Source: Hoeflea sp.
GTDB lineage: Bacteria; Pseudomonadota; Alphaproteobacteria; Rhizobiales; Rhizobiaceae
Assembly: GCF_030682515.1 (NCBI RefSeq)
Contig: NZ_JAUXOD010000015.1
Span: 1-50,011 of the forward strand
Direction of reading: 5' to 3'
DNA length: 50,011 nt
Positions 21,048-42,985 of the stretch are shown piece after piece; the stretch's first letter is position 1; each line of letters opens with the position of its first letter. The position numbers and the translations under genes are program-made. The notes below the pieces were generated by a model. The model did not search any database. It was not told the origin of the DNA and worked only from the letters and a program-made list of their open reading frames with translations.

Positions 21048-21079
21048 TGACGTTCTCCTCTGGTTAAGGCCCCGGTCGA

Positions 21080-24763: not shown

Positions 24764-25156
24764 TCATGGGCATTTCCCCAGCGGACCCCAGACGCTGAGC
24801 TCGTCGAAGTTGACCATATAGGTCGCATCCGGATTGCGCGAGATCGTGAACCGGGTCTTGACCGCGCCGCTCTCGCCTTCTTCGCGGCACAGCCCGTCCA
24901 CTTCAAGAACCCCGTCCTTGTCGCCCGCCAGGGTCAAGCCGTCGCAGGCGCTTGCAAAGCTCGACACCTCGTCGGGCGTCAGCAGCAATTGCATGTCGGA
25001 GACGATCCTGCCGGTCCTGTGAAATTCGCAGCCCTCCGCATTGCCATAGGCGCCGTCAATCGGCAGCCTCTCGGCAAATGCCGGAGCGGCAGCGGTCACG
25101 GCAAGCAAGGCCGTGCCCAGCAGGCGGTCAGGAACGAAAGCGCACACGACCGTCAC
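24764..25156 (-). CDS. Secreted 130-residue protein coupled to hydA
   Basis: I do not recognise this family. The GTG start overlaps the hydA stop (GTGA at 25153-25156). The N-terminus has a signal peptide (hydrophobic core about residues 11-24, then APAFAE). The mature part has five cysteines and ends in GPLGKCP, suggesting a disulfide-bonded periplasmic domain. A stretch such as DATYMVNFDELSVWG is likely beta structure. It is part of the pyrimidine train by position and coupling, between dihydropyrimidinase and the transporter ATPase. Confidence 0.7.
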   Translation of the reverse strand: MTVVCAFVPDRLLGTALLAVTAAAPAFAERLPIDGAYGNAEGCEFHRTGRIVSDMQLLLTPDEVSSFASACDGLTLAGDKDGVLEVDGLCREEGESGAVKTRFTISRNPDATYMVNFDELSVWGPLGKCP

Positions 25157-27179: not shown

Positions 27180-27941
27180 TCACTCCGCATAGCCCGGATT
27201 CTCCCGATCGAGCACGATCTTCATTTCCTCGAAATGGGAGTATTCGGCGTCCTTGTAGACATCCCATTCGCGCGCCACCGATTCGGCCAGTTCGTCGCTC
27301 ATGACGTTGAGCTCCTGGCCGGTCGAATATGCCAGAACCATGGTGCGGGCGGCGCGTTCGAGGTGGTACATTGCGTCAAACGCCTCGGCCACCGTGGGCG
27401 CCACGGTGGTGACGCCGTGGTTGGCCATCATCATCACGGAATGATTGCCGATGCAGGCGGCGATGCGCTCGCCCTCGGCTTCTTCCGTGGCGATGCCGCC
27501 GAAGCTCATGTCCATCGCCAAGCGGTTGAAGAACCGCGCGGTGACCTGGTCGATCGGCTTGATCGACGGGTCCTTCAGCGTCGCGAGCGTGGTGGCATAG
27601 GGCGGATGCAGGTGCAGCGCCACGCGGGCATGCGGCACCCGGCGGTGGATGGCCGAATGGATCGACCAGGCGGAGGGATCGGGCGCGTCGGGCCGCTTCA
27701 TCGTCTCGGGATCATCAGCGTCGACCAGCAGCAGCTCGCTCGCCTTGGCGCGGGAAAAGTGCCGCCAGCGCGGGTTGACCAGGAAGGTCTTGCCGTCGGG
27801 CGAGACGGCGGCGGAGAAATGGTTGGCGACGCCCTCGTGCCAGTCGTAATGGGCGGCGAGCCTCAGGGCGGCGGCGAGATCGATGCGCAGCTGGCGTTCG
27901 TCGGTGCGGTCGATGGGCAAGATGTTTGAAGTGGCGTTCAT
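27180..27941 (-). CDS. Class II aldolase/adducin family protein
   Basis: A 253-residue class II aldolase/adducin-domain protein. The zinc-site pattern is present: HEGVANHFSAAV near residue 35, the pair in ALHLHPPYATTLA near residue 110 and MANHGVTTVAPTVAEAF near residue 175. These enzymes split or decarboxylate phosphorylated or oxo-acid substrates. It lies between a membrane-protein gene and the DUF559 cassette inside the pyrimidine train. No aldol step is part of the known reductive pyrimidine pathway, so the substrate is unknown; handling of a reactive semialdehyde is one speculative option. Confidence 0.85.
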   Translation of the reverse strand: MNATSNILPIDRTDERQLRIDLAAALRLAAHYDWHEGVANHFSAAVSPDGKTFLVNPRWRHFSRAKASELLLVDADDPETMKRPDAPDPSAWSIHSAIHRRVPHARVALHLHPPYATTLATLKDPSIKPIDQVTARFFNRLAMDMSFGGIATEEAEGERIAACIGNHSVMMMANHGVTTVAPTVAEAFDAMYHLERAARTMVLAYSTGQELNVMSDELAESVAREWDVYKDAEYSHFEEMKIVLDRENPGYAE

Positions 27942-28984: not shown

Positions 28985-30235
28985 TTATTCCACCACCCCG
29001 GCGGTTTCCACCACCGCATGCATCAGCACGTCGCAGCCCGCGGCGGCCCATTCCTTGGAGATTTCCTCGGCCTCGTTGTGGCTGAGCCCGTCGACGCAGG
29101 GGCACATGACCATGGCGGTCGGCGCCACGCGGTTGATCCAGCAGGCGTCATGGCCGGCGCCGGAGATGATGTCCATGTGCGAGTAGCCGAGCCGCTCGGC
29201 GGCGTCGCGGATCGCCTTGACGCAAGTCTTGTCGAATTCCGGCGGGTTGAACTGGCCGACGATCTCGGCCTCGAAACCCAGGCCCAGCGCCTCGCAGAGT
29301 TTCGGCGCTTCGTCCATCAGCCGCTCGACCATGCCGTTCAGCGTATCGATCTCGTGGCTGCGGAAATCGATGGTAAAGACCACCTTGCCGGGGATGATGT
29401 TGCGGGAGTTGGGATAGACGTCGACATGGCCGATGGCGCCCACGGCATTGGGCGCGTTGTCGATGGCGATCGCATGCACCAGCTCGGTGATCTGGGCGAG
29501 GCCGCGGCCGGCGTTCTTGCGCATCGGCATCGGCGTCGAGCCGGTGTGGCTTTCCTTGCCGGTGACGGTGCACTGGATCCAGCGCAGGCCCTGGCCATGG
29601 GTGACGACGCCGATGTCCTTGCCTTGCGCTTCCAGGATCGGGCCCTGCTCGATGTGGAGTTCGAACAGCGCGTGCATCTTCCGCGCGCCGACCTGCTCGT
29701 CGCCCTTCCAGCCGATGCGTTCCAGCTCGTCGCCGAAGCGCTTGCCCTTGGCGTCGACGCGGTCATAGGCCCAGTCCTGCTCGTGGATGCCGGCGAAGAC
29801 GCCCGATGCCAGCATGGCCGGGGCAAAGCGCGTGCCTTCCTCGTTGGTCCAGTTGACCACCACGATCGGGTGCTTCGTCTTGATGTCGAGGTCGTTCAGG
29901 GTCCGGACGAGCTCGAGGCCGCCCAGCACGCCCAGCACGCCGTCATACTTGCCGCCCGTCGGCTGGGTGTCGAGATGGGAGCCGACATAGACTGGCAGCG
30001 CGTCCGGATCGGTTCCCGGCCTGGTCATGAACATGTTGCCCATGGTGTCGACGCCCATGGTCATGCCGGCGTCCTCGCACCAGCGCTGGAACAGCTTGCG
30101 GCCTTCGCCGTCCTCGTCGGTCAAGGTCTGGCGGTTGTTGCCGCCAGCCACGCCCGGTCCGATCTTCGCCATTTCCATGAGCGAGTCCCACAGCCGGTCG
30201 GCGTTGATGCGAAGATTTGCTGCGGGTGCGGACAT
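28985..30235 (-). CDS. Zn-dependent N-carbamoyl-beta-alanine amidohydrolase (HyuC/PydC-like)
   Basis: A 416-residue M20/M28-type amidohydrolase of the allantoate amidohydrolase / L-N-carbamoylase family. It releases CO2 and ammonia from N-carbamoyl-beta-alanine or N-carbamoyl-beta-aminoisobutyrate, step three of pyrimidine breakdown. The two-metal site is visible: GSHLDT near residue 88, GGKYDGVLG, WTNEEGTRF near residue 131, ELHIEQGP near residue 197 and GLSHNEAE near residue 387. GAGHDA is also conserved. GAAGGAGA precedes the ATG. The assignment between carbamoylase and allantoate hydrolase rests on the neighbours hydA, the aminotransferase and mmsA. Confidence 0.92.
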   Translation of the reverse strand: MSAPAANLRINADRLWDSLMEMAKIGPGVAGGNNRQTLTDEDGEGRKLFQRWCEDAGMTMGVDTMGNMFMTRPGTDPDALPVYVGSHLDTQPTGGKYDGVLGVLGGLELVRTLNDLDIKTKHPIVVVNWTNEEGTRFAPAMLASGVFAGIHEQDWAYDRVDAKGKRFGDELERIGWKGDEQVGARKMHALFELHIEQGPILEAQGKDIGVVTHGQGLRWIQCTVTGKESHTGSTPMPMRKNAGRGLAQITELVHAIAIDNAPNAVGAIGHVDVYPNSRNIIPGKVVFTIDFRSHEIDTLNGMVERLMDEAPKLCEALGLGFEAEIVGQFNPPEFDKTCVKAIRDAAERLGYSHMDIISGAGHDACWINRVAPTAMVMCPCVDGLSHNEAEEISKEWAAAGCDVLMHAVVETAGVVE

Positions 30236-30250: not shown

Positions 30251-30277
30251 TCGGTCGTCTCGGTCGTCTCGGTCAGC
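30251..30277. repeat. Short tandem repeat at the mmsA stop
   Basis: Three 9-bp units, TCGGTCGTC, TCGGTCGTC and TCGGTCAGC, lie head to tail at 30251-30277. The third overlaps the mmsA stop codon (30273-30275). The array sits in the 37-bp gap before hyuC. It could vary in copy number by slippage and so change the mmsA tail or the hyuC spacing. Confidence 0.6.
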
Positions 30278-31769
30278 TCGGGAAGGTGAACACGGCGCCG
30301 GACTTGATGCCGTTCGGCCAGCGCGAGGTGATGGTCTTCAGGCGCGTGTAGAAACGCACGCCTTCGGGACCGTAGATCGAATGATCGCCGAACAGTGAGC
30401 GCTTCCAGCCGCCGAAGGAATGATAGGCCACCGGCACCGGGATCGGCACGTTGATGCCGACCATTCCGACCTCGATGGAATCGGAGAAGGCGCGGGCGGC
30501 GTCGCCGTCGCGGGTGAAGATCGCGGTGCCGTTGCCATATTCATGGTCGTTGATCATCTTGACGGCTTCGTCGAAGGTTCCGGCGCGGACCACCGAGAGC
30601 ACAGGGCCGAAGATCTCTTCCTTGTAGATGGTCATGTCGGTGGTGACGCGGTCGAACAGCGTGCCGCCGACAAAATAGCCGTTCTCGTAGCCCTGCAGCG
30701 AGAAGCCGCGGCCGTCGACCACCAACTCGGCGCCTTCGCTCACGCCCTGGTCGATGTAACCCAGCACCTTCTGCTGATGCTGCTTGGTGACCACCGGGCC
30801 CATCTCTGCGGCCTCGTCGGTGGCGGGGCCGATCTTCAGCGCCTCGACCCGAGGCTTCAACTTGGCCACCAGCGCGTCGGCGGTGTTTTCGCCCACCGGA
30901 ACGGCGACAGAAATCGCCATGCAGCGCTCGCCGGCCGAGCCGTAGCCCGCGCCCATCAGCGCGTCGGCGGCCTGGTCCATGTCGGCGTCGGGCATGATCA
31001 CCATGTGGTTCTTGGCGCCGCCCAGCGCCTGCACGCGCTTGCCGTTGGCGGTGCCGCGCGAATAGACATACTGGGCGATGGGCGTGGAGCCGACGAAGCT
31101 CACAGCCTTGACGTCCGGGTGGTCGAGCAGCGTGTCGACGGCCAGCTTGTCGCCATGGACGACGTTGAGCACACCTTCGGGGAAGCCCGCTTCCTGGAAC
31201 AGTTTCCAGGCCAGCATCGGCGCAGAGGGATCGCGCTCGGAGGGCTTCAGCACGAAGGTGTTTCCGCAGGCGACTGCGATCGGGTACATCCACATCGGCA
31301 CCATGGCCGGGAAGTTGAACGGGGTGATGCCGGCAACCACGCCCAGCGGCTGGCGGTCGGCGATGGAATCGACGCCCGGCCCCACATTGCGGGAGAAGTC
31401 GCCCTTGAGCAGGTTGGGGATGCCGCAGGCGAACTCCACCACCTCAATGCCGCGGGTGACCTCGCCCAGCGCGTCGTCATGAGTCTTGCCGTGTTCGCGG
31501 CTGATCTCGCGGGCGATATCGGCCGCATGGCGGTCGAGCAGTTCCTTGAACTTGAACATGAACCGCGCGCGCTTCAACGGCGGCATGGCGCCCCAGGCGG
31601 GCTGGGCGGCCTTGGCAGAAGCGACAGCGGCGTTGATCTCGTCGACTGTCGACAGCGGCAGTTCGGCGATCTGTTCGCCGGTGGCGGGGTTGAACACCGG
31701 GGAGCGGCGGTCGGAGCCTGAAATGACGAGTTTGCCGCCAATGGCGTTTTCGATGATCTGCATGGTCAT
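30273..31769 (-). CDS. mmsA: CoA-acylating methylmalonate-semialdehyde dehydrogenase
   Basis: A 498-residue aldehyde dehydrogenase of the MmsA/IolA class. It converts methylmalonic semialdehyde to propionyl-CoA, and malonic semialdehyde to acetyl-CoA, with NAD and CoA. The catalytic cysteine is Cys283 in GERCMAIS, preceded by the conserved [13 protein letters not shown] and [10 protein letters not shown] (Gly/Asn) segments. [17 protein letters not shown] and NGTAIFT are typical of this class. It takes the last step of both uracil and thymine catabolism here. The ATG overlaps the aminotransferase stop (ATGA at 31766-31769). Confidence 0.94.
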
Positions 31770-33094
31770 GCCAGTCCTTTGAGCACTTTGCGGAGTTTTT
31801 CGAACAGCTCGTCGATCTGGTCCTTCGAGATGATCAGGGGCGGCGACAGCGCGATGATGTCGCCGGTGGTGCGGATCAGCAATCCGTCCTCATAGGCCTT
31901 GAGGAAGGCCGAGAAGGCGCGCTTGGTCGGCTCACCGGCGATCGGCTCGAGCTCGATGGCGCCGATCAGGCCGGTGTTGCGGATGTCGATGACATGCGGG
32001 CAGTCTCTTAGCGAATGAAGCTGCTCTTCCCAATAGGGCGCAAGTTCGGCGGCGCGGGTAAGCAGGCCTTCCTCCTTGTAGGTGTCGAGCGTGGCGAGTG
32101 CTGCGGCCGAGGCGATCGGGTTGCCCGAATAGGTGTAGCCGTGGAAGAACTCGATCAGGTGCTCCGGGCCGGTCATGAAGGTGTCATGGATCTCGGAGGT
32201 GACGAACACCGCGCCCATCGGGATGACGCCGTTGGTCAGGCCCTTGGCCGAGGTGATCATGTCGGGCATGACGTCGTAATGCTGCGCAGCGAAGGGTGAT
32301 CCAAGACGGCCGTAACCGGTGATGACCTCGTCGAAGACCAAGAGGATGCCGTGCCTGGTGCAGATCTCGCGCAGTTTCTTGAGATATCCTTTCGGCGGGA
32401 TCAGCACGCCGGTGGAGCCCGCGACCGGCTCGACGATGACGGCGGCGATGGTGGAGGCGTCATGCAGGGTGACGATGCGCTCGAGTTCGGAGGCGATGTC
32501 GCCGCCATGCTCGGGCTGGCCCTTGGTGAAGGCGTTCTGGGCGGGCAGGTGCGTGTGCGGCATGTGGTCGACGCCGGTCAGCAGCGTGCCGAACATCTTG
32601 CGGTTGGAGACGATGCCGCCCACCGAGATGCCGCCGAAATTGACGCCGTGATAGCCGCGCTCGCGGCCGATCAGGCGGAAGCGGCCGCCATTGCCCTTGG
32701 CGCGGTGATAGGCGAGGGCAACTTTCAGCGCCGTCTCGACGGCTTCCGAGCCGGAATTGGTGAACAGGACATGGTTCATGCCCTCGGGTGCGATGTCGAC
32801 CAGCCGGTTGGCCAGCTCGAACGCTTTCGGGTGCCCCATCTGGAAGGCCGGCGCATAGTCGAGTTCGCCCGCCTGCTGCGCGATCGCCTCGGTGATCTTG
32901 GGGCGGCAGTGGCCGGCATTGACGCACCACAGGCCCGCCGTGCCGTCCAGGATCTTGCGGCCGTCGGAGGTGGTGAAATGCATGTCCCTGGCGCCGACCA
33001 GCATGCGGGGGTTCTGCTTGAACTGCCGGTTTGCGGTGAACGGCATCCAGAAGGCGCGCAGGTCGTTGGGGGTTGTGTTGAGCCGGTTTGACAT
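31766..33094 (-). CDS. Class III aminotransferase, probable beta-alanine/beta-aminoisobutyrate transaminase
   Basis: A 442-residue PLP enzyme of the omega-amino acid:pyruvate aminotransferase group. It starts [20 protein letters not shown], as these enzymes do. The PLP lysine is Lys284 in TSAKGLTNG, preceded by [15 protein letters not shown], which holds the aspartate that contacts the pyridine nitrogen. Next to mmsA and the carbamoylase it most likely turns beta-alanine into malonic semialdehyde and beta-aminoisobutyrate into methylmalonic semialdehyde. AGGAGG lies 10 bases before the ATG. It is the first gene of the minus-strand train, 97 bp from a candidate RutR operator. Confidence 0.93.
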
Positions 33095-33190
33095 GGCTGG
33101 TTGCGCCTCCTGACGCAGGGGTTTCCCGATCCTCCAGTCAAATGCCATTTTGAAGGCTTTGTTTCCGCACAGAAGCTGTGGTACGAAATC

Positions 33191-33206
33191 TTGACTGTTT
33201 GATAAA
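33191..33206. promoter_or_regulatory. Candidate RutR operator between rutR and the pyrimidine gene train
   Basis: TTGACT-GTTT-GATAAA is a 16-bp imperfect dyad with a 4-bp centre. It matches the E. coli RutR box TTGACC-N4-GGTCAA at 9 of 12 arm positions and is nearly identical to sites upstream of preT (42950-42985). It lies 97 bp from the aminotransferase ATG and 105 bp from the rutR start, so binding could control both directions. TTGACT may also serve as a -35 element for rutR. Confidence 0.7.
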
Positions 33207-33310
33207 ACTCTAACAGGGCCAATGAGCCGGTCAAGGCCAATTCGCCGCGCCTGGCCCAAGGCGCCCACAGGCAAGGACGGCTGAATGCGGGTGCAAAGGG
33301 AACGCAGCAG

Positions 33311-33982
33311 GTGAAGGCACGGGCCACGGAAACCCAGCGCAAGACGCGCATCCAGACCGAGAACGAGGAGAAGATCCTCGATGCGGCGCTGGAGGAATTC
33401 TCCGCCCACGGGTTTCGCGGCGCCACCATCGACCGGATCGCCCAGCACGCGGGCATGTCCAAGCCGAACCTGCTCTATTATTTCCGGCGCAAGCAGGACA
33501 TCTACGAGGCGCTGATCGCGCGGCTGCTCGACACCTGGCTCGAGCCGCTCAGAGAGCTTGACGCCATCGGCGACCCGCTGCCGGAGCTGCAGTCCTATAT
33601 CCGCCGCAAGCTCGAGATGGCGCGCGACTTTCCGCGCGAGAGCCGTCTGTTCGCCAACGAGATGCTGCAGGGCGCTCCACGAATCAAGCGGCTCCTGCAG
33701 AGCGAGCTCAAGCCGCTGGTGGATGAGAAGGCCGAGGTTCTGAAAGGCTGGATGAAGGCAGGCAGGATCAACCCGGTGGATCCCAGGCACCTGATCTTCT
33801 CGATCTGGTCGACCACGCAGCACTATGCCGATTTCGATGTCCAGGTGCAGGTCATCCTCGGGCCGGACCGGGGCGCCGACGGCCGCTTCGAGGACGCTGC
33901 GCGCTATCTCGAGACGCTGTTCCTCGACGGTTTGCGGCCAAAAAACGCAGCCGGCGACGGGCCGCGCATTCGCACCTTGTGA
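33311..33982 (+). CDS. rutR: RutR-like TetR-family pyrimidine regulator
   Basis: A 223-residue TetR-family repressor. The N-terminal helix-turn-helix has ILDAALEEFSAHGFRGATIDRIAQHAGMSKPNLLYYFRRKQDIY. The C-terminal ligand domain closely follows E. coli RutR: YIRRKLEMARDFPRESRLFANEML, the DEKAEVLKGWMKAG helix and DPRHLIFSIWSTTQHYADF. RutR senses uracil or thymine and leaves its operator when they bind. The GTG at 33311 is the plausible start, though its ribosome site is weak. The divergent position beside the pyrimidine train, with a RutR-like dyad between, supports it as the local regulator. Confidence 0.9.
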   Translation: MKARATETQRKTRIQTENEEKILDAALEEFSAHGFRGATIDRIAQHAGMSKPNLLYYFRRKQDIYEALIARLLDTWLEPLRELDAIGDPLPELQSYIRRKLEMARDFPRESRLFANEMLQGAPRIKRLLQSELKPLVDEKAEVLKGWMKAGRINPVDPRHLIFSIWSTTQHYADFDVQVQVILGPDRGADGRFEDAARYLETLFLDGLRPKNAAGDGPRIRTL

Positions 33983-33997
33983 GCGCCAGGCACTGAC

Positions 33998-34756
33998 CTA
34001 GGCGATCAGGCCCACAGCGCGGCGGCCTTCCTCGGTCTTGAGCGAGAAATCACCGCCGTCATAGGGGCGCGCCGCGTCCGTTGTCAGCCAGGCGATCGTC
34101 TCTCCGACCCAGTCGGGCGAGATGTGCATGGACCAGTCTAGCTGGCTGATCGGATTGACGCCGGAGGTCTTGATCGCGCGCTGCATGTCGGTGGCCACCG
34201 TTCCCGGCGAGAGGCCGACGACGCGGATATTGTCGGCGGCGCATTCGGCGTGGGCGCAGCGGGTGAGCGAGAGCACGGCGGCCTTGGTGGCGCAATAATG
34301 GCTCCAGCCTTCCAGCGCGGACGAGGCGGCGCCCGAGGAGATGTTGATGATGACGCCGCCGCCCTGCCGCTTCATCACCGGAATGGCCGAGCGCAGGCCG
34401 TGATAGACGCCCTTGAAATTGATGTCGACCACCTGGTCCCAGGCTTCCGGGTCGGAGTCCTCAAGGCGGGCGATCGGGTCGATCACGCCAGCATTGTTGA
34501 CCAGGATATCGAGACTGCCAAAGCTCTCCAGGGCCTGATTGACTGCATTCTCGACATCAACGTACTGGGCAACGTCGCAGGTGACGGCCAAGGCCTTGTC
34601 ACCGATTTCCGCGGCTATCCGCGCGGTGTCGCGGGTCGAGCGCGCCGCCAGGACGACATTGGCGCCGTATCCCGCCATGATGCGGGCCGCCGCCTCGCCG
34701 ATGCCGCGGCTCGCGCCGGTGATCAGGGCCGTCTTGCCGCTCAGGTCGATGCTCAT
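33998..34756 (-). CDS. Short-chain dehydrogenase/reductase
   Basis: A 252-residue classical SDR. The dinucleotide motif TGASRGIGEAAA is near residue 15, then VNNAGV near residue 86, the catalytic Ser in NISSGAASSA near residue 140 and YCATK near residue 153. LSPGTVATDMQ near residue 184 is typical. It is convergent with rutR and ends 16 bp from it, so it is not part of the pyrimidine train. Substrate unknown; NAD(P) preference cannot be set with confidence. Confidence 0.9.
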   Translation of the reverse strand: MSIDLSGKTALITGASRGIGEAAARIMAGYGANVVLAARSTRDTARIAAEIGDKALAVTCDVAQYVDVENAVNQALESFGSLDILVNNAGVIDPIARLEDSDPEAWDQVVDINFKGVYHGLRSAIPVMKRQGGGVIINISSGAASSALEGWSHYCATKAAVLSLTRCAHAECAADNIRVVGLSPGTVATDMQRAIKTSGVNPISQLDWSMHISPDWVGETIAWLTTDAARPYDGGDFSLKTEEGRRAVGLIA

Positions 34757-34884
34757 GTCTCATCCTCGTTTTGATGCCGCCCTTTCTGGCGCGGATGGGA
34801 CGAGCAATCAAGAGCGCCGGGCCCGAAAGTGCGCGGGCGACCGGATCGACCCGCAGGGGTCCGGGCCGATCCGACAGGATAGGG

Positions 34885-35094
34885 TCAGTGGCTTCCGCCA
34901 CCGCCGCCTTCGCCTTCACCGCCCGGACGTTCGTCATCGACTGCGTCGGTGTTGCGCCGGTTGAAGGTGGAATAGGGGTCCCGCCTCTGCGATGTGGGGG
35001 TTCCTCCACATCCGGCCGCGGCCGCGGTGGAGGTCAGTCCGAGCAGCAGCGTGAGCCGCGAACGGTCGACCTTGGTGTCCTGATCTTCTTGCAT
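34885..35094 (-). CDS. Small Gly/Glu-rich lipoprotein-like peptide
   Basis: A 69-residue product with a charged start, a hydrophobic run (TLLLGLTSTAAAAGC, about residues 15-29) ending in a lipobox-like AAAGC, then a hydrophilic tail finishing in a Gly/Glu-rich segment and SH. GAGGAGAGA precedes the ATG at a good distance, which supports translation. No known domain. It is convergent with no gene and lies 128 bp before the start of the SDR on the same strand. It could be a surface lipoprotein; it could also be chance coding. Confidence 0.55.
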   Translation of the reverse strand: MQEDQDTKVDRSRLTLLLGLTSTAAAAGCGGTPTSQRRDPYSTFNRRNTDAVDDERPGGEGEGGGGGSH

Positions 35095-35238
35095 GGCGAG
35101 TCTCTCCTCTCAGAAAATATCGATCTGTGCGCTCCATTCGCCTGTCCTGAAACTGGCAGCCTGGAGACGCCGTGCATTCGGCATCCGCGTCTATCGCGAT
35201 CTGCTAAAACATCAGATCAAGGGTCGCCGGATCCGGCA

Positions 35239-35325
35239 TTGATAAACATCAACAAACTTGCATGTGTCCGCCAAAAAATGCGCGGCGGGTTGCGGTGCCA
35301 CGGGGATAAATCAAGAAATCTTGAT
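35239..35325. promoter_or_regulatory. Two dyads upstream of arsC, candidate ArsR-type operators
   Basis: TTGAT-AAAC-ATCAA (35239-35252) and ATCAAGA-AA-TCTTGAT (35310-35325) are perfect inverted repeats sharing ATCAA/TTGAT arms. ArsR/SmtB repressors usually bind AT-rich dyads of this ATCAA/TTGAT type. The second lies 71 bp before the arsC ATG. No arsR gene is in the window. The rest of the 301-bp gap between the small lipoprotein gene and arsC (35095-35395) shows no gene. Confidence 0.5.
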
Positions 35326-35395
35326 AGATCACTGGACCTGGCGGGCCTGGTGCGCTAAGTCGGGTTCGTCGAACGCCAAGGGTATGGGAGCGATC

Positions 35396-35800
35396 ATGAG
35401 CATTGTCATTCACCACAATCCGGGATGCGGCACGTCGCGCAATGTCCTGGAGATCATTCGCGCCTTTGCCGGAGAGCCGGTCGTGATCGAGTATCTCAAG
35501 ACCGGCTGGACCCGGCCGCAGCTGCAGGGCCTGTTTGCCGCAGCCGGCCTGACGCCGCGCGAGGCGTTGCGGCAGTCCAAGACGCCGGCCGAGGAGTTGG
35601 GGCTGACCGACCCTGCTGTCAGCGACGAGGCCATCCTCGATGCGATGGTCGAGCACCCGGTGCTGGTCAACCGGCCGATCGTCTGCACGCCGAAGGGCGT
35701 TAAGCTGTGCCGGCCGTCGGAGGCCGTCTTCGCGCTCCTCGATGTTGCCCCGGGTACGACCTACACCAAGGAAGACGGAGAGGTTATCACCGCGCCATGA
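35396..35800 (+). CDS. arsC: Glutaredoxin-type arsenate reductase
   Basis: A 134-residue ArsC of the glutaredoxin-coupled (plasmid R773-like) family, which reduces arsenate to arsenite. The catalytic cysteine is Cys11 in [11 protein letters not shown]. The arginine-bearing segments [11 protein letters not shown] and [17 protein letters not shown] follow as in the family. GGGAG sits 5-9 bases before the ATG. The stop overlaps the arsH start (ATGA). No arsenite efflux gene (arsB/acr3) or arsR lies in the window, which is unusual because arsenite must be exported. Confidence 0.92.
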
Positions 35801-36513
35801 AGGACAAGATGCCGAACATTGATGCGGAGAGCTTCCGCCTGCCGGATGTGGACAGCCTGGCCTTGCCCGGCGAGGCGGGGCATCCGCCCCGGGTGCTGAT
35901 GCTTTACGGGTCGCTGCGCGGGCGGTCCTACTCGCGCTTCCTCACGCTCGAAGCCCAGCGGGTGCTCGAAGCGCTGGGCGCCGAGGTGCGGGTGTTCGAT
36001 CCGTCCGGGTTGCCGCTGGTTTCGGACGAAGCGGAAAAACATCCCAAGGTTCTCGAGTTGCGGGAGCTGTCGCTCTGGTCGGAAGCCCAAGTGTGGTGCT
36101 CGCCCGAGCGTCACGGCGCCATGACCGGGGTGATGAAGACGCAGATCGACTGGCTGCCCTTAGCGCCGATCGGCGGCGTGCGCCCGACGCAGGGGCGGAC
36201 GCTCGCCCTGATGCAGGTCTGCGGCGGGTCGCAAAGCTTCAACACGCTCAACCAGATGCGCATTCTCGGCCGCTGGATGCGGATGATCACCATTCCCAAC
36301 CAGTCCTCGGTCGCCAAGGCCTTTGCCGAGTTCGACGACGACGGCCGGATGAAGCCGTCGCCCTACTACAATCGCATGGTCGACGTGATGGAGGAACTGA
36401 TGAAGTTCACGCTGCTCACGCGGGGGCGCTCGGCCTATCTGGTGGACCGCTATTCCGAACGGGTGGAGAGCGCCGAGGAACTTTCCAGGCGGGTCAATAT
36501 CCGCTCGATCTAG
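35797..36513 (+). CDS. arsH: ArsH, NADPH-dependent FMN oxidoreductase
   Basis: A 238-residue flavoprotein of the ArsH family. [21 protein letters not shown] near residues 34-54 is the FMN phosphate loop, [18 protein letters not shown] is the signature, and [18 protein letters not shown] and [14 protein letters not shown] follow. ArsH oxidises trivalent organoarsenicals and also acts as a general quinone/azo reductase. It is translationally coupled to arsC by a four-base overlap and ends 26 bp from the convergent peroxiredoxin gene. Confidence 0.94.
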
Positions 36514-36539
36514 CGCAGCCGTCTTTCCCGGGACCGGGA

Positions 36540-37076
36540 CTATACCGCGCCGGTGTATTCGCCGCGTGCCGGATAGTCGTTCTTGATGGCAAAATCGAGC
36601 GCGCTGACCAGTTCCGAAAAATGCGGGCGGACAAACGGCATGGTCTGGACCGAGCCGTAGTAAAGCGTCTGCTGCGGCGTCACCATGAACAGGCCGGGCT
36701 CGGAGAACAGCGCCGGCTCCTCGATGCCGATCGAGGTCTTGCCGCGCGATGTCGAGATGTAGAGCCCCCATTCCCGCGCCTTGGCCAATGGCAGATCGTA
36801 GCCGAAGCGAAGGCTGTCGGCGCCGATCTTCTCTGCCATCTGGCGGGTGCGATCCTGACCGTCCGAACTGACGGCAATGGTCGCCACGCCGCGTTCGGCG
36901 AAGTCGGCGACGCGCTTTTGGAGTTCAGTGAGATAGGTGGCGCAGATCGGGCAGTGCAGTCCGCGGTAGAAGCAGATCACCGTTCCGCGGTCCGAGGCGT
37001 CGGTGGTCAGGTCGAAATCGCCGTGGTCAAGCGTCGGCAGTTTCAGATCCGGGGTTTTCTGGCGGGGGAGGAGCAT
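36540..37076 (-). CDS. AhpC/TSA-type peroxiredoxin-like protein
   Basis: A 178-residue thioredoxin-fold redoxin. The active site is FYRGLHCPICATYL with Cys42 and Cys45 (a CXXC, as in AhpC/TSA-like and AhpE-related proteins that use a nearby resolving cysteine). VSSDGQDRTRQMAEKIG and PGLFMVTPQQTLYYGS are typical peroxiredoxin strands. It should reduce peroxides. GGGGGAGGAG directly precedes the ATG. It faces an AraC-type regulator across a 94-bp promoter region, which suggests that regulator controls it. Confidence 0.88.
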   Translation of the reverse strand: MLLPRQKTPDLKLPTLDHGDFDLTTDASDRGTVICFYRGLHCPICATYLTELQKRVADFAERGVATIAVSSDGQDRTRQMAEKIGADSLRFGYDLPLAKAREWGLYISTSRGKTSIGIEEPALFSEPGLFMVTPQQTLYYGSVQTMPFVRPHFSELVSALDFAIKNDYPARGEYTGAV

Positions 37077-37090
37077 GGGAAAGCCTTTCC

Positions 37091-37149
37091 ATCGGGGTTG
37101 TGGACGCACTCTATCGGAACTAGGGTCTGAAAAATCCGATTTAACCGAT
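37091..37149. promoter_or_regulatory. ATCGG/CCGAT half-sites in the peroxiredoxin-AraC promoter
   Basis: Four copies of the pentamer ATCGG or its complement CCGAT lie at 37091-37095, 37113-37117, 37136-37140 and 37145-37149. The first two are direct repeats 22 bp apart, two helical turns; 37113-37118 and 37135-37140 form the inverted pair ATCGGA/TCCGAT. AraC-family proteins bind spaced half-sites, so these are candidate sites for the adjacent regulator. Confidence 0.4.
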
Positions 37150-37170
37150 GAAAACACCGAAATGGGCGAC

Positions 37171-37920
37171 ATGGACAGACTGACAACGCTGATGGAGCGG
37201 TTCACCCTGCAGGTGAAGCCCACGACCTTGAAGGCCGCCACGCTTGTGGTGACGTCGGACAGCGATGGCTCGCCGAGCCAGGTCTGGTTCGGGCGTGCCG
37301 GGCTCGGATCGCAGTTGCCGGCCGAAACGGTCCGGTTTTCAGCCGAAGTCGAGTGGGGCGGGGCTTTCAATCCGCTGCTGGCGGCACTGCCGGACAGGAT
37401 CTGTTTCGATCTGTCGCGGGACCCCGAGGCGGCAAGTCTCATCGATCTGATGCTTTCGGAACTCGCGAAGGCCCGATGCGGATCTGCGTCGGTGGTCAAC
37501 CGTCTTGGCGAGGTGATGGTCGTGCGCTTGCTGCGGGCGCAGATCGAGGCAGGCTCGACCGAACCGGGATTGCTCTCCGGGCTTTCGGATGCGAGGCTCA
37601 ACCGGGTGATCGTCGCCATTCACGGCAACCCCGGGCGCAAGTGGCGCAATGAAGACCTCGCCGGGATCGCAGGTCTCTCGCTCAGCCGCTTTGCGGAGAC
37701 ATTCGTCTCGGTCGTCGGCGAAGCACCGGCGGCCTATCTGCGCCGGTGGCGGCTGTTGCTGGCGCGCCGGGATCTTCAGAACGGGGACCGGGTCGAGGCT
37801 GTGGCGCGACGCTATGGCTATCGATCACCGGACGGCTTCGCGCGCGCTTTCAGGCAGCGGTACGGGCAGAAGCCGCTCGAGATGCGCGGCATTCGACAGA
37901 CTGGTCCGGCTGCCGGGTAG
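37171..37920 (+). CDS. AraC-family transcriptional regulator
   Basis: A regulator of about 249 residues. The N-terminal part is a cupin-like AraC-binding domain (cupin_6 type). The C-terminal 100 residues are the AraC double helix-turn-helix: WRNEDLAGIAGLSLSRFAETF, then APAAYLRRWRLLLARRDLQ and VEAVARRYGYRSPDGFARAFRQRYGQKPLEMR. The ATG at 37171 or the one at 37162 could be used; neither has a strong ribosome site. It is divergent from the peroxiredoxin gene, as is usual for cupin_6 AraC regulators that control a redox or dehydrogenase gene. Confidence 0.88.
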   Translation: MDRLTTLMERFTLQVKPTTLKAATLVVTSDSDGSPSQVWFGRAGLGSQLPAETVRFSAEVEWGGAFNPLLAALPDRICFDLSRDPEAASLIDLMLSELAKARCGSASVVNRLGEVMVVRLLRAQIEAGSTEPGLLSGLSDARLNRVIVAIHGNPGRKWRNEDLAGIAGLSLSRFAETFVSVVGEAPAAYLRRWRLLLARRDLQNGDRVEAVARRYGYRSPDGFARAFRQRYGQKPLEMRGIRQTGPAAG

Positions 37921-37929
37921 CTTATTGTT

Positions 37930-37980
37930 TCACGCAATTCCGGGCGCGAAACCGGTTCCTACTTTCGCTGGAATTGCTCT
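37930..37980. repeat. Short palindromic intergenic element
   Basis: GCAATTCC (37934-37941) pairs with GGAATTGC (37970-37977) across a segment containing the smaller dyad AACCGGTT (37950-37957). The element exactly fills the gap between two convergent stop codons. From memory its form (TTTCACGCAATTCCG ... GGAATTGCTCT) matches a short palindromic repeat scattered through Rhizobiales genomes; it occurs once here. Confidence 0.6.
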
Positions 37981-38854
37981 AAGGCTGGCGCCGGGCCCAG
38001 TCCCTGCCGATGTCCCTTATCAGATCGGCCATCGACGCTTGCCGCCAGCCTTTGCGGTCACCCTTGACGTAGCCGACAAGGACGAGGCCATGCTGCTTGC
38101 GGATCGCCGAAACGGCAAGGCTGTCGGGCATGATCGTGCGCACGCCGTAGATCTCGGTGATCGGCAGGTCGAGTTGCGGCATGACGCGGTGGATCAGTTC
38201 GGCGCAGAATGTGCAGTCGGTCGAATCCACGTTGAACAGGAAGTCGAACCTCATCCCAAGGGTGGCGACAAAGTCGAGCGCCGTCCTGCGCCGCTGCTGG
38301 AGACTGTCGAAGTGCGGTCGCAGGATCGCGACCGCGTCGGTGTTGAGTACGATGGAAGACGGTGACAGGTGCACGCCCTTGGCATCGGCCTCGATGAAGA
38401 CATGACCGCTTCGGATCCTGGCCAGGTGTGGCTTGACCTCAGGAGATGCCGAGATGCCGAGACGTTGCAGGTCCTGTTCCGTGCCGAGATAGATTGCGGC
38501 ATGTCCGAACAGTCCGGGTATCAACCGGCCCGAGCCTCTGCCCTTGGAACTGACCAGAACGATATCAAGCGGCTGCAGGACATCCATGACCGCGTCCTGC
38601 GCGGCCTGCTTGGACTTGAGGTGACCGCTGCGCCAGGCCGCATGGCTCAAGACCGTACCCAGCACCGGGGCAACCGTGCGCGCCATGTCGACAAACCAGC
38701 GTGGATAGTCCTCCATGTCGGTGCAGCACCGGGCAAGCGTGGCCTGCGACGGCGCGGCGGCGGTCGGTGCCGGAGCGGACCGCATGCAGCCTTGCGCGGC
38801 GAGCGTCAGCCCAAGCAAGGCCACGAGCAGGAGCGGACTGAGGATGGACCTCAT
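37979..38854 (-). CDS. YiiX/YebB-like NlpC/P60-fold lipoprotein hydrolase
   Basis: A 291-residue probable lipoprotein: signal peptide (residues 1-22) with the lipobox AAQGC. The body resembles YiiX/YebB-like permuted papain-fold hydrolases: QPLDIVLVSSKG, the histidine in LFGHAAIYLG near residue 135, and the cysteine in DSTDCTFCAELIHRV near residue 225 are candidate catalytic residues. These enzymes cut peptides or lipids in the envelope. Its start overlaps the methyltransferase stop (ATGA). It is last of three coupled minus-strand genes. Confidence 0.78.
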   Translation of the reverse strand: MRSILSPLLLVALLGLTLAAQGCMRSAPAPTAAAPSQATLARCCTDMEDYPRWFVDMARTVAPVLGTVLSHAAWRSGHLKSKQAAQDAVMDVLQPLDIVLVSSKGRGSGRLIPGLFGHAAIYLGTEQDLQRLGISASPEVKPHLARIRSGHVFIEADAKGVHLSPSSIVLNTDAVAILRPHFDSLQQRRRTALDFVATLGMRFDFLFNVDSTDCTFCAELIHRVMPQLDLPITEIYGVRTIMPDSLAVSAIRKQHGLVLVGYVKGDRKGWRQASMADLIRDIGRDWARRQP

Positions 38855-39477
38855 AGCTTCCGGGCCAGCAGGACGGTGTGACATCCGCAATCCGGATCTT
38901 GCCTGACGAACTCAAGGATGCGCAGTCCGAGGCTTGCGAGCGCGGCATCGTAATCCTCGAGCGAGAGGCTCGCATGATAGACGGGATCATCGCCGACATG
39001 GCCCGCCACTTCGCCGGCTTCGGGGCCGACCGTCAGCATCAGCGCGCCCTGCGGCGCAAGATGGGCGTCCAGGCGCACCAGGGTCGCGCGCTGTTCCTCC
39101 GGTGTGAGATGAAAGAAGCTGTCCCAGCCGATCACGCCGTCGAAGGTCTGCCCCAGATCGATGCGGCGCAGATCGGCCTGCCGCCAGTCGCCATGGGGGA
39201 AGGCTTCGCGCGCCAGATCAATCATCGCCTGGGCCGCGTCGACGCCGGTGACGCGAAGGCCCAGATTCGCGAGATATGCGGCGATCGGGTCGCCCGACCC
39301 GCAGCCCGCATCGAGCACCGATCCGCCTTGCGGCAGCAGTGCGGCAAACCGGTCGAGCCAGGGTTTTTCCATCAGCGCCCGGGTTCGCTCGGCATCGAAG
39401 CGGGCGGCGTTGCGCTCGTAGATCTCGACCGTCTGGGTCGCCAGCACCGCGAGCGCCGGGATCCTGTCTCCCTGCAT
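38851..39477 (-). CDS. Class I SAM-dependent methyltransferase
   Basis: A 208-residue methyltransferase with the Rossmann motif VLDAGCGSGDPIAAYL near residues 54-69, acidic VTGVDAAQAM, the WRQADLRRIDLG motif and FDGVIGWDSFFHL. The target is unknown. It is coupled on both sides: its ATG shares a base with the stop of the DUF2799 lipoprotein gene (TGATG at 39475-39479) and its stop overlaps the start of the YiiX-like gene. A cytoplasmic enzyme set between two lipoproteins is unusual. Confidence 0.88.
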   Translation of the reverse strand: MQGDRIPALAVLATQTVEIYERNAARFDAERTRALMEKPWLDRFAALLPQGGSVLDAGCGSGDPIAAYLANLGLRVTGVDAAQAMIDLAREAFPHGDWRQADLRRIDLGQTFDGVIGWDSFFHLTPEEQRATLVRLDAHLAPQGALMLTVGPEAGEVAGHVGDDPVYHASLSLEDYDAALASLGLRILEFVRQDPDCGCHTVLLARKL

Positions 39478-40073
39478 CAGCTCCGCGACGCCCGGCTGTA
39501 GCGGAAATTGTCCATGTCGGCCTCGATCCGGCTGAGCTCGGATTGCAGGCGACCTATGTCGCGCTCCATGTCGCGGATCTTCCAGCGGTTGGAATCGATC
39601 CTGCTCTGTGCCGCACGCGGATCGGGTGTGCCGGCGCGGATCAGTTCCTCGTCGGTCCGGATTTCCTGCTCGACGCCGCGGATGCGCGATTCCAGGCTGC
39701 TGATCTCGCTTTTCTTCTGATGGTGGAAGCGCCCGAGATCGTAGCCCTCGCGGAAGCCGGCATCGAGATCGATCGGGCAGACATTGGCGTAGGAGCCGCC
39801 CTGGCTGCCGACGGACAGGCCGTTCAGCGGCGTGCAGTAGCGCGGCAGGCCCTGCTGGTAGCCCTGGTACCAGAGCGTCTGGTCGGCGTTAACACCTGCC
39901 TTGGTGCAGGCCTGGACGTGCCGGGCAAAACGGTCCTGCGGGTTGTAGCCGGCCGCACCGTCCTGCTCGCCGATCACCCGCCAGTCGGCGACGGCGCATT
40001 CCTCCTTCGACATCGTCTGGCAGGAGGAGATGAGCGCGCACAGCGCGATGATCAGGAAGACACGCACCTTCAT
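39477..40073 (-). CDS. DUF2799 lipoprotein with C-terminal coiled coil
   Basis: A 198-residue lipoprotein. The signal peptide ends in the lipobox ISSC at about residue 18. The DUF2799 region follows: CAVADWRVIGEQDGAAGYNPQDRFARH, then LWYQGYQQGLPRYCTP and DLDAGFREGYDLGRFHHQKK, with several conserved cysteines. The last 70 residues (SEISSLESRIRGVEQEIR onward) form a heptad-rich coiled coil. It probably sits in the periplasm, anchored to a membrane. Function unknown in the family. It starts a three-gene coupled set. Confidence 0.85.
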   Translation of the reverse strand: MKVRVFLIIALCALISSCQTMSKEECAVADWRVIGEQDGAAGYNPQDRFARHVQACTKAGVNADQTLWYQGYQQGLPRYCTPLNGLSVGSQGGSYANVCPIDLDAGFREGYDLGRFHHQKKSEISSLESRIRGVEQEIRTDEELIRAGTPDPRAAQSRIDSNRWKIRDMERDIGRLQSELSRIEADMDNFRYSRASRS

Positions 40074-40129
40074 TTTGATCTCCGAAATACCTCGAAACAA
40101 CCCATCGCAAGCAAACCCTTAAAAAAGAC

Positions 40130-40158
40130 AAGGACCCCGTTTTGTCAACGGGGTCCTT
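40130..40158 (-). terminator. Intrinsic terminator of preTA
   Basis: A perfect 12-bp stem (40130-40141 with 40147-40158) closes a 5-nt loop. On the minus strand it is followed by GTCTTTTTTAAG, a six-T run, so it is a canonical intrinsic terminator 22 bp after the preA stop. It separates preTA from the three-gene lipoprotein set. Confidence 0.92.
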
Positions 40159-40179
40159 GGTTTGGGATGCGTTGTTGTT

Positions 40180-41490
40180 CTATTCCGCGGCCTCTTTGGC
40201 CATCGGGTTGTTGGGGTGCGTGGTCCAGTTGGCGTAGCGCGGATCAATCGGCTTGCCGGTGCGCGGGTCGGAGCCCACGGTCATCTCCACCATGGTGATG
40301 CAGTCATCGACCGGGCAGACATTGACGCAGAGGTTGCAGCCGACGCATTCGTCGTCCATCACCTCGAAATGCCTGACGCCGTCGACCATCGAGGTGATGG
40401 CCTGGTGCGACGTGTCTTCGCAGGCGATGTGGCAGCGGCCGCACTTGATGCACAGGTCCTGGTCGATCCTGGCCTTGGTGATGTAGTTGAGATTGAGATA
40501 CTGCCAGTCGGTGACATTGGGCACCGCGCGGCCCTGGAAGTCGGCGATCGTGGCATAGCCCTTCTCGTCCATCCAGTCCGACAGGCCCTGGGTCATCTCC
40601 TGCACGATCTTGAAGCCATAGGTCATGGCCGCAGTGCAGACCTGCACCGTGCCGCAGCCGAGCGCGATGAACTCGGCGGCGTCGCGCCAGGTCTGGACGC
40701 CGCCGATGCCGGAGATCGGCAGGCCGCGGGTCTCGCCGTCGCGGGCGATCTCGGCTACCATGTTGAGCGCGATCGGCTTGACCGCCGGGCCGCAATAGCC
40801 GCCATGGGAGCCCTTGCCGTCAATGGTCGGCACGGGGGCGAAGTTGTCGAGATCGACCGAGACGATCGAGGAGATGGTGTTGATCAGCGACACTGCGTCG
40901 GCGCCGCCCGCCTTGGCCGCCCGCGCCGGATAGCGGATGTCGGTGATGTTGGGGGTGAGTTTCACGATCACCGGCATCTTCGAATAATGCTTGCACCATT
41001 CGGCCACCATCTGGATGTATTCGGGCACCTGGCCGACGGCGGCGCCCATGCCGCGCTCGCTCATGCCGTGCGGGCAGCCGAAATTCAGCTCGATGCCGTC
41101 GGCGCCGGTGTCCTCGACGCGCGGCAGGATCGCCTTCCAGCTTTGCTCCTCGCAGGGCACCATGATCGAGACGACCATCGCCCGGTCGGGCCAGCGCCGC
41201 TTGACCTCGGCGATTTCCCTGAGGTTCACCTCGAGATCGCGGTCGGTGATCAGCTCGATGTTGTTGAGGCCCAGCAGCCGGCGATCGGGACCCCAGATCG
41301 CGCCATAGCGTGGGCCGTTGACGTTGACGACCGGCGGGCCTGCCTCGCCGAGCGTCTTCCAGACCACGCCGCCCCAGCCCGCCTCGAAGGCGCGCTCGAC
41401 ATTGTAGGCCTTGTCGGTGGGCGGGGCCGAGGCCAGCCAGAACGGGTTGGGCGACTTGATGCCGATGAAATTGGTGGAAAGGTCAGCCAT
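40180..41490 (-). CDS. preA: NAD-dependent dihydropyrimidine dehydrogenase subunit PreA
   Basis: A 436-residue catalytic subunit that reduces uracil and thymine. The FMN TIM barrel (about 1-310) opens with FIGIKSPNPFWLASAPPTDK and holds the catalytic cysteine in NFGCPHGMSERGMG near residue 135. The C-terminal ferredoxin part has two [4Fe-4S] motifs, CIKCGRCHIACED and CVGCNLCVNVCP. It starts 16 bp after preT. Length and motifs are normal for the family. It takes electrons from PreT through the clusters. Confidence 0.96.
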   Translation of the reverse strand: MADLSTNFIGIKSPNPFWLASAPPTDKAYNVERAFEAGWGGVVWKTLGEAGPPVVNVNGPRYGAIWGPDRRLLGLNNIELITDRDLEVNLREIAEVKRRWPDRAMVVSIMVPCEEQSWKAILPRVEDTGADGIELNFGCPHGMSERGMGAAVGQVPEYIQMVAEWCKHYSKMPVIVKLTPNITDIRYPARAAKAGGADAVSLINTISSIVSVDLDNFAPVPTIDGKGSHGGYCGPAVKPIALNMVAEIARDGETRGLPISGIGGVQTWRDAAEFIALGCGTVQVCTAAMTYGFKIVQEMTQGLSDWMDEKGYATIADFQGRAVPNVTDWQYLNLNYITKARIDQDLCIKCGRCHIACEDTSHQAITSMVDGVRHFEVMDDECVGCNLCVNVCPVDDCITMVEMTVGSDPRTGKPIDPRYANWTTHPNNPMAKEAAE

Positions 41491-41506
41491 GATATCTTTT
41501 CCTCCG

Positions 41507-42853
41507 TCAAGCCATCAGGGCTTTGTGAATGCTCTGAGCTGCGATCTTGCCGTCCTCGACGGAGACCACGGTCAGGTCTTCGCCGCCTGCGACGCAGTCG
41601 CCGCCGGCCCAGATCTTGGGGTGCGAGGTGCGGCGGTCGTCGCTGACCCGGATGCGGCCCTTGTCGAGTTCGACCGAACCGGCCAGAGGTCCTGAATCCG
41701 GCGTCTGGCCGATGGCCTTGAACACCTGGTCGGCTTCAAGCGTCACCAGCTCTCCGGTGCCTGAAAGCTTGCCTGCGGCATCGAGCGCGGTCTTCTCGAG
41801 CGTGATTGCGGATACCGCGCCATCGGTCACGTGCAGGCTCCTGGGCGCCAGCCAGTGGCGGATGACGACGCCGTGGGTCTGGGCCAGTTCCTGCTCATAG
41901 AGCGAGGCGTTCATGTGCTCCTGGCCGCGCCGGTAGGCGATGGTCACCTCCTCGGCGCCGAGCAGTTTCGACTGGACCGCTGCATCGATGGCGGTCATGC
42001 CGCCGCCGATGACGACAATCCGCCGGCCCACTTCCAGCAGCGACAGATCCTCGGCCTGGCGCAGCACGCCGATGAAATCGACCGCGTCGATGACGCCCGC
42101 GGCGGATTCGCCCTCGAGGCCGAGCGCGTTGACGCCGGGCAGGCCGAGGCCGAGAAACACGGCGTCGAAGTCCTGGGGCAACTGGTCGAGCGTGATGTCG
42201 CGGCCGAGCGCCTTTCCGGTCTCGATGGCAATCCCGCCGACCTCGAGAATGAAGCCGACCTCGTCCTGGGCAAAGTCATTGGTCGTCTTGTAGGCGGCGA
42301 TGCCATATTCGTTGAGGCCGCCAGCCTTCTCGCGCGCTTCGTAGATCGTGACGTCGTGACCGAGGCTCGCCAGCCGGTGGGCGCAGGACAGGCCCGCGGG
42401 CCCGGCGCCGACAACGGCGATCTTCTTGCCGGTGGCGGCCGCGCGGGTGAACGGATGCGGCTGCTCGCGCTCCATGAAGGTGTCGGTGGCGTAGCGCTGC
42501 AACAGGCCGATCTTGACCGGCTTGCCTTCGGCCACTTCCCGCACGCAGACTTCCTCGCACAAGGTTTCCGTGGGGCAGACGCGGGCGCACATGCCGCCCA
42601 GGATGTTCTGGTCGAAGATGGTCTTGGCGGCGCCCACGGGATTGCCGGCCTGGATCTTGCGGATGAACATCGGAATGTCGATGGAGGTCGGGCACGCCGT
42701 CATGCACGGCGCGTCGTAACAGAAATAGCATCTGTCCGCCTCCACCAGCGCTTCGTGCGGCGTCAGCGGCGGGTGGATGTCGGAAAAATTGTCGGCATAG
42801 TCGGCGCTGGAAAGACGTTGCGCCTTCACATCGGCGGATTGGGTTGCTGTCAT
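41507..42853 (-). CDS. preT: Dihydropyrimidine dehydrogenase subunit PreT
   Basis: A 448-residue flavoprotein of the GltD/PreT type. The N-terminal helical domain has two Cys clusters for [4Fe-4S] centres, CYFCYDAPCMTACP and CARVCPTETLCEEVC. The FAD fold carries VVGAGPAGLSCAHRL near residue 145, and the NAD(P)H fold GGGMTAIDAA near residue 285. It passes electrons from NAD(P)H to PreA. The ATG at 42853 is chosen because GAGGGG lies 8 bases upstream; an upstream ATG at 42904 has no site. Two candidate RutR operators lie about 100-130 bp upstream. Confidence 0.95.
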   Translation of the reverse strand: MTATQSADVKAQRLSSADYADNFSDIHPPLTPHEALVEADRCYFCYDAPCMTACPTSIDIPMFIRKIQAGNPVGAAKTIFDQNILGGMCARVCPTETLCEEVCVREVAEGKPVKIGLLQRYATDTFMEREQPHPFTRAAATGKKIAVVGAGPAGLSCAHRLASLGHDVTIYEAREKAGGLNEYGIAAYKTTNDFAQDEVGFILEVGGIAIETGKALGRDITLDQLPQDFDAVFLGLGLPGVNALGLEGESAAGVIDAVDFIGVLRQAEDLSLLEVGRRIVVIGGGMTAIDAAVQSKLLGAEEVTIAYRRGQEHMNASLYEQELAQTHGVVIRHWLAPRSLHVTDGAVSAITLEKTALDAAGKLSGTGELVTLEADQVFKAIGQTPDSGPLAGSVELDKGRIRVSDDRRTSHPKIWAGGDCVAGGEDLTVVSVEDGKIAAQSIHKALMA

Positions 42854-42949
42854 CCTCTGGACCCCTCGTTTCGAGATCTTCTTGTGCGGACTGGTGTGGC
42901 GCAACTCCTCAGTGTCGCCATCGCCGCGATAGGGGGAGAATGAAGCGGT

Positions 42950-42985
42950 TTTATCAAAAGGTCAAATTTTTTATCGGATGATAAA
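42950..42985. promoter_or_regulatory. Two tandem RutR-like operators upstream of preT
   Basis: Read on the minus strand, 42950-42965 is TTGACC-TTTT-GATAAA, matching the E. coli RutR box at 10 of 12 arm positions. 42970-42985 is the perfect dyad TTTATC-GGAT-GATAAA. Their centres are 20 bp apart, about two helical turns. On the minus strand TTGACC can also serve as a -35, with CATTCT 17 bp downstream as -10, so a repressor bound here would block the preT promoter. The site is also 75 bp before the divergent hydrolase start. Confidence 0.75.

Follow-up and report, generated by a model that had tools for sequence, protein, structure and literature searches.

The TetR-family regulator RutR of Escherichia coli represses rutA-G and rutR and touches uracil through residues W77, Y97, W167, Q171 and Q179 (PMC10891134). 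RutR regulons for pyrimidine catabolism have also been described in 68 proteobacterial genomes from 13 groups, with taxon-specific motif changes (Leyn et al. 2016, PMC5343134). We analysed a stretch of 50,011 nucleotides from a Hoeflea sp. genome (contig NZ_JAUXOD010000015.1, positions 1 to 50,011; hereafter the window), which carries a gene for a RutR-like regulator, a train of pyrimidine-catabolism genes, the separate genes preA and preT, and three 16-bp sites that resemble a RutR box. The conserved positions of these sites indicate that they are very probably operators of the RutR-like repressor encoded at 33311-33982, which would switch the train and preTA together and be relieved by uracil.

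The system resembles that of E. coli in the TetR fold, the five uracil-contact residues and the predicted pyrimidine-catabolism targets of its regulator; its box is likewise a dyad of 16 bp around a 4-bp centre, and a candidate operator stands beside rutR. Unlike in E. coli, the predicted Hoeflea targets comprise importers and the reductive preTA/dihydropyrimidinase/amidohydrolase route, and the arms of the box are looser (TTKAYC). It is best read as a uracil-relieved RutR-type regulon for reductive pyrimidine breakdown, which is a known class (Leyn et al. 2016), and we make no claim of priority for the regulon in Rhizobiales. Two of the sites described below, at an importer and at a small RNA elsewhere in the genome, are additions to what the preliminary description of this DNA had proposed.

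Three candidate operators and a RutR-like regulator

The first site (33191..33206, plus strand, TTGACT-GTTT-GATAAA) is a single RutR-type box in the intergenic region between the divergent genes aptA and rutR, and is common to both. The other two lie on the minus strand at preT: a proximal box (42950..42965, TTGACC-TTTT-GATAAA), whose TTGACC doubles as the putative preT -35, and a distal box (42970..42985, TTTATC-ATCC-GATAAA) at a centre-to-centre distance of 20 bp from the proximal one, which also fits the pattern on the plus strand as TTTATC-GGAT-GATAAA. Re-reading the window returned the letters and coordinates of all three exactly as the preliminary description had given them. Beyond these three sites the window holds no exact match to TTKAYYNNNNGATAAA, and in the organism's own 4.67-Mb genome this pattern occurs in 7 places (8 matches with both strands counted), three of which are the sites in question. 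The palindromic form TTKAYCNNNNGRTMAA, from which the rutR/aptA site departs only in having T instead of C at position 6, occurs in 9 places in the same genome against 3 for the reversed control, and per-genome counts summed across 18 genomes of the genus give 183 against 47. For the window alone, 3 hits at no more than one mismatch compare with a mean of 0.46 in shuffled sequence, and 2 of 100 shuffles reach as many. This within-window excess over chance is modest and conservation therefore had to decide; we regard conservation in orthologous promoters as the main evidence for the sites, and as strong.

The gene beside the first site (33311..33982, plus strand) had been described as a TetR gene of RutR-like type, an assignment that domain, alignment and residue comparisons all support. 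Its product matches TetR_N with 55.1 bits (cut-off 24) and the YcdC-like C-terminal domain TetR_C_3 with 169 bits (cut-off 25), and aligns with E. coli RutR without gaps. The counterparts of the five uracil-contact residues, W76, Y96, W166, Q170 and Q178, are all kept and are invariant in nine aligned RutR sequences, as are residues M49-N53 of the helix-turn-helix. A RutR match is present in all 18 genus genomes.

Conservation of the predicted rutR/aptA operator

In the genome scan, the box was found at no more than one mismatch in 80 of 80 Rhizobiales rutR loci (21 perfect), against 30 of 1489 random windows drawn from those loci (20 perfect), which may themselves contain true preT boxes; the 80 loci are the best of at least 563 confirmed and come mostly from Mesorhizobium or Rhizobium. 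A pattern scan recovered it in only 74 of the 80, because its pattern excludes TTGACT. Counted from aptA, the box appears in 54 of 60 loci by pattern scan and in 60 of 60 at no more than one mismatch (one by the strict one-way pattern and 59 listed, among which the best at L242 is another match), but this count is not independent evidence since it concerns the same box as that of rutR. By pattern scan, a box also stands upstream of the amidohydrolase gene in 19 of 75 loci, while none was found upstream of dihydropyrimidinase (0 of 67) or preA (0 of 63). Among individually compared genomes, the rutR box is present at no more than one mismatch in all 30 loci of a first set of relatives (own genome included) and in 7 of ten more distant relatives; among the 40 genomes whose RutR match has at least 48% identity, the own genome included, 37 carry it. 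Across the genus it reads TTGACTGTTTGATAAA in 18 of 18 loci, all 16 bp being constant, gap included, and G030, from another genus of the family, is identical. Beyond this the right arm varies by group: GATAAA is found at rutR/aptA in Hoeflea, Pseudohoeflea and two metagenome-assembled genomes (5 of the 80 loci), GGACAA mostly in Mesorhizobium, GGTAAA in Rhizobium, Ensifer, Agrobacterium and others, and GGAAAA in Devosia and Pelagibacterium.

The position of the box is also informative. A promoter scan of 32900-33500 returned, as its sole promoter-like site, TTGACC-N16-TAGAGT on the minus strand (shuffles mean 0.1), which we take as the predicted aptA promoter (33207..33234; -35 at 33234-33229, -10 at 33212-33207). 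The GGTCAAGG block that contains its -35 is constant in 19 aligned sequences. The last base of the predicted -10 (33207) adjoins the box, which starts at the next base downstream, so that the beginning of the aptA transcript would lie beneath a bound dimer.

These conservation data bear on the possibility that the boxes belong to another regulator, either of LysR type recognising T-N11-A or another TetR protein, and merely resemble RutR boxes. TTTATC-N4-GATAAA does satisfy T-N11-A, the generic LysR box as given in PMC10746234, and some relatives carry weaker RutR-like proteins of 37-42% identity. However, the box adjoins rutR in all 80 loci, mostly as TTGACC-N4-GG.., a form close both to the established RutR box and to what best matches it between E. 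coli rutA and rutR, a region where TGGACTAAACGGTCAA is the only match within 3 mismatches of the RutR consensus. Furthermore, whole arms are kept, and not T and A alone, while the gap varies, and the preT gene of a genome without a close RutR match (G027, below) has no box. We therefore regard another regulator as improbable.

Paired candidate operators at preT

The preT box is present in 29 of 30 loci of the first set of relatives and in 5 of 5 of a further set, giving 34 of 35 testable genomes (own included); a 36th genome with preT, G025, runs off its contig and was left out. Conservation upstream of Rhizobiales orthologues, which the preliminary description had named as the check on its dyad, thus holds at preT as it does at rutR. 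A pattern scan gave 56 of 61 loci, the five misses being four loci without upstream DNA and one with 98 bases of it. In G027 preT is present and the box absent, and the best RutR match is 37%, a situation found in no other preT genome scanned. Of the 17 preT loci found in the genus (none matched in G007), 16 have two boxes at 20-bp spacing and G008 has one; a distance of about two helical turns suggests that two dimers may bind to one face of the DNA.

All 57 boxes in the 56 preT loci, including those of Rhizobium, Mesorhizobium and Pelagibacterium, end in GATAAA. The earlier view that GATAAA arms are a lineage-specific version of the box consequently fails, because preT boxes ordinarily carry this arm, and only at rutR/aptA is it limited to a group. 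Given the constant M49-N53 residues and the preT boxes, GATAAA is more likely an ordinary half-site.

A putative preT -10, CATTCT (42937..42942, minus strand), matches TATAAT at 3 of 6 positions and was assigned from conservation, lying 17 nt downstream of the preT TTGACC in 17 of 18 aligned sequences. Since the left arm of the preT box is then also the putative -35, one could suppose that the boxes owe their conservation to a role as core promoter elements (-35 TTGACC/T) and that no repressor is involved, and the constancy of all 16 bp at rutR/aptA within the genus would fit this. We consider it very improbable, as the preT, importer and small-RNA sites keep both arms and a fixed 4-bp gap while their gap letters vary, and the aptA box lies downstream of the -10 and not at the -35.

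The two-box intergenic region is common to preT and a divergent gene (window 43060-43905, plus strand) for a hydrolase that scores over the cut-off of a hormone-sensitive-lipase family model. This hydrolase is present in only 1 of 80 Rhizobiales loci scanned.

A probable further operator at a Bmp-type importer

A further recurrent non-coding box lies elsewhere in the genome, ahead of a gene for a Bmp-type binding protein that is followed by a gene for an ATP-binding cassette (ABC) ATPase. It was found at no more than one mismatch in 18 of 18 genus genomes, its arms constant and its gap letters varying, in a scan of 30 loci out of 36 genomes carrying the gene (in G028 only about 205 bp upstream were covered, owing to the contig end). 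Most likely the RutR-like regulator also controls the importer in this genus. The nearest NCBIfam names of the importer are those of a putative B6 importer, far under cut-off, and from its Bmp family membership we would guess that it takes up nucleosides.

A model of the regulon

In the model that we favour, scarcity of uracil (or thymine) would leave the repressor dimer bound to the box that directly follows the aptA promoter and to both boxes around the preT -35, and the bound repressor would block transcription of both the degradation/uptake train and preTA. Uracil entering the conserved pocket would release the repressor, so that both loci would be expressed together. We infer that the control is repression, as well as the ligand, the binding, the preT promoter and the joint use of the paired preT boxes. 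The preliminary description had proposed a single regulon covering the aptA-mmsdh-amidohydrolase-dihydropyrimidinase-ABC train and preTA, and this proposal gains support from the orthologous conservation, the promoter overlap, the uracil-contact residues and the natural negative G027.

Several observations weigh against this model. G027 is a single RutR-poor negative, and the promoter scan at preT called no promoter-like site. The regulator misses the cut-offs of both NCBIfam RutR equivalog models (TIGR03613, 224.8 against 368; NF011584, 202.5 against 230), and for this reason we term it RutR-like and not an equivalog. Among the ten more distant relatives, G049, G046 and G029 lack a box in the roughly 500 bp next to rutR, and in G051, one of the seven with a box, it lies about 440 bp ahead of the fetched end. 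The identity of the box among close relatives partly reflects shared ancestry. Finally, outside the genus the importer box was found in just 6 of 12 scanned loci; of the six loci without it, four come from genomes with a close RutR match (G059, G051, G041 and G036) and two from genomes that lack one (G056 and G045).

A RutR-type box upstream of an alpha-r14-type small RNA

The second site outside the window lies upstream of a divergent alpha-r14-type small RNA, a copy of which is at L135 1524-1669 (G000:C17:198912-199057, minus strand). The element, of about 146 nt, is present in 17 of 18 genus genomes (G007, where it is absent, is 75% complete), with a LysR gene on one side and an ABC ATPase gene on the other, both directed toward the RNA. 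A DNA search of a 199-genome draw from the family returned, beyond its three genus members, only matches of 22 and 39 bases. In the predicted fold there are three hairpins and a terminator, and two of the loops read CCUCCUCC(C); in 13 of the 17 sequences there are 39 predicted pairs, 14 of them retained with two-sided change, and the loop letters are nearly constant in all 17. The RNA therefore has the features by which alpha-r14 is recognised, hairpins with CCUCCUCCC loops and a terminator, and like alpha-r14/NfeR1 of Sinorhizobium meliloti it matches RF02344 over its full length (positions 1-123 of 123). It differs in its LysR and ABC ATPase neighbours, in the RutR-type dyad upstream and in falling below the Rfam gathering score of 58.8, with 40.1 (the Hoeflea copy), 39.3 and 37.8 bits in three loci and no match at the gathering score in 9 loci.

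A box at no more than one mismatch precedes the TTGCA core of the RNA in 16 of 17 loci, 14 of them perfect, compared with 3 perfect and 22 at no more than one mismatch in a control of 8500 shuffled 60-mers. The exception is G005, with 3 mismatches; in G008 the box lies 13 bp further upstream. The top 30 loci with stronger alpha-r14 copies contain no box at no more than one mismatch in the 130 bp upstream, and one has a site with 2 mismatches. Many of these stronger copies (L163 and further top-scoring RF02344 loci in the genus) sit, without a box, just after a short open reading frame, the end of which we take to resemble a DUF1127 protein.

Two readings of this site have to be weighed. The site may, for this RNA alone, be where a LysR-type regulator such as LsrB/VtlR activates, and not RutR, a reading to which we give nearly an even chance. 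NfeR1 of S. meliloti has LsrB as its activator, which acts from a T-N11-A motif at -72 to -57, and NtrC as its repressor (PMC10746234). In Hoeflea the centre of the box lies about 60 bp upstream of the predicted RF02344 start, a usual position for an activator; a LysR gene adjoins the RNA, the generic LysR box also fits the dyad, and the link to RutR is one of letters only. However, both the variable letters (Y, R and M at positions 5, 12 and 14) and the kept ones (C at position 6 in 15 of 16 and G at position 11 in all 16) are those of the RutR box, whereas the LsrB motif given in the same source, TGCA-N6-GCAT, is unlike this dyad. When 11 small-RNA strings were scored on a matrix built from rutR and preT boxes, those of G000, G011 and G016, all outside the training set, scored like the window sites, and those of G001 and G005 scored poorly (11.0 and 2.9). 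This matrix was weighted by hand, with background loci picked for holding a pattern match; the three window strings and the G013 small-RNA string belong to its training set or to the complement of that set, the entry 'ecoli' is a typed consensus-like string and not E. coli DNA, and the entry 'bmp G007b' comes from G007:C90 and not from the importer locus.

The other reading, to which we would assign somewhat less than an even chance, is that the RutR-type regulator also controls this alpha-r14-type RNA and that the RNA, through its two anti-Shine-Dalgarno loops, would pass pyrimidine status on to the translation of many mRNAs, possibly those of importers. Literature searches for RutR-type boxes at alpha-r14 RNAs turned up only a RutR-like motif reported upstream of Azospirillum small RNAs (PMC7685610).

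Pathway genes and neighbouring features

The reductive pathway that converts uracil to beta-alanine and onward is well established. By their profile matches, the minus-strand gene train, which spans 33.1 to about 20.1 kb, and preA and preT at 40.2-42.9 kb together encode this route. From its upstream end, the train consists of genes for an AptA-type omega-aminotransferase (31766..33094; NF052567, 756 bits, cut-off 500), an enzyme of methylmalonate-semialdehyde dehydrogenase type (30273..31769; TIGR01722, 732.6 bits, cut-off 448.5), an amidohydrolase of the hydantoinase/carbamoylase family (28985..30235; NF006769 and TIGR01879, each over cut-off) that is likely the beta-ureidopropionase, a class II aldolase/adducin-domain protein (27180..27941; PF00596), a dihydropyrimidinase (25153..26610; TIGR02033, 606 bits, cut-off 393), an ABC transporter ATPase (23883..24665) and permease (22186..23073), both from profile matches, and an NMT1/THI5-like solute-binding protein (20082..21110), whose coding start is approximate as the open frame extends to 22214. 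The separate locus, also on the minus strand, comprises preA, for a dihydropyrimidine dehydrogenase subunit (40180..41490; NF006183, 746.8 bits, cut-off 335), and preT, for a GltD-like oxidoreductase (41507..42853) that matched no named preT model and takes its name from its adjacency to preA.

Between the two pyrimidine loci, a gene at window 35707-36513 (plus strand) encodes an ArsH-type protein that scores over its NCBIfam cut-off. Rfam annotation of the window gave no matches at gathering score.

Other matches to the box pattern

The small-RNA box, the two preT boxes and the importer box account for four of the nine perfect matches to the palindromic pattern in the organism's own genome. 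Of the others, four (C53, twice, C83 and C85) are inside open reading frames kept by a base-composition filter and one (C25:9498) is outside the kept frames with no near downstream gene; none was counted as a member, because no recurrence with varying gap letters was seen. The filter is crude, having placed several importer boxes 'inside' over-long frames, and the matches C53:5540, C83 and C85, which lie near the 5' end of their frames, may have a regulatory role. At 16 further genus loci, 11 boxes are inside filter-kept frames and 5 outside.

Three other observations concern individual sites. The sequence TTGACCATGCGATAAA, at L006 1501-1516, L121, L122 and L133, recurs in several genus genomes with constant gap letters and is perhaps a promoter element; the nearby gene is presumably rpoZ-like. 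A box-like site lies at a gene start in two genus genomes (L296 1984 and L290 1993), the gene being, we presume, similar to a tRNA methyltransferase gene. A perfect box, TTGACCATTTGATAAA, occurs at L270 370-385 (G007:C90), where no match to any pathway gene of the window was found.

Implications for RutR-type regulation

With these results, a motif that had been read by eye becomes a testable regulon whose expected footprints can be stated at the level of single letters. The right arm of the rutR/aptA box depends on the group, while preT keeps GATAAA and M49-N53 are the same in nine regulators, which makes this family a clean case on which to study half-site tolerance. If the assignment of the small-RNA site to the RutR-type regulator is true, that site would link riboregulation through anti-Shine-Dalgarno loops with a repressor that senses a base.

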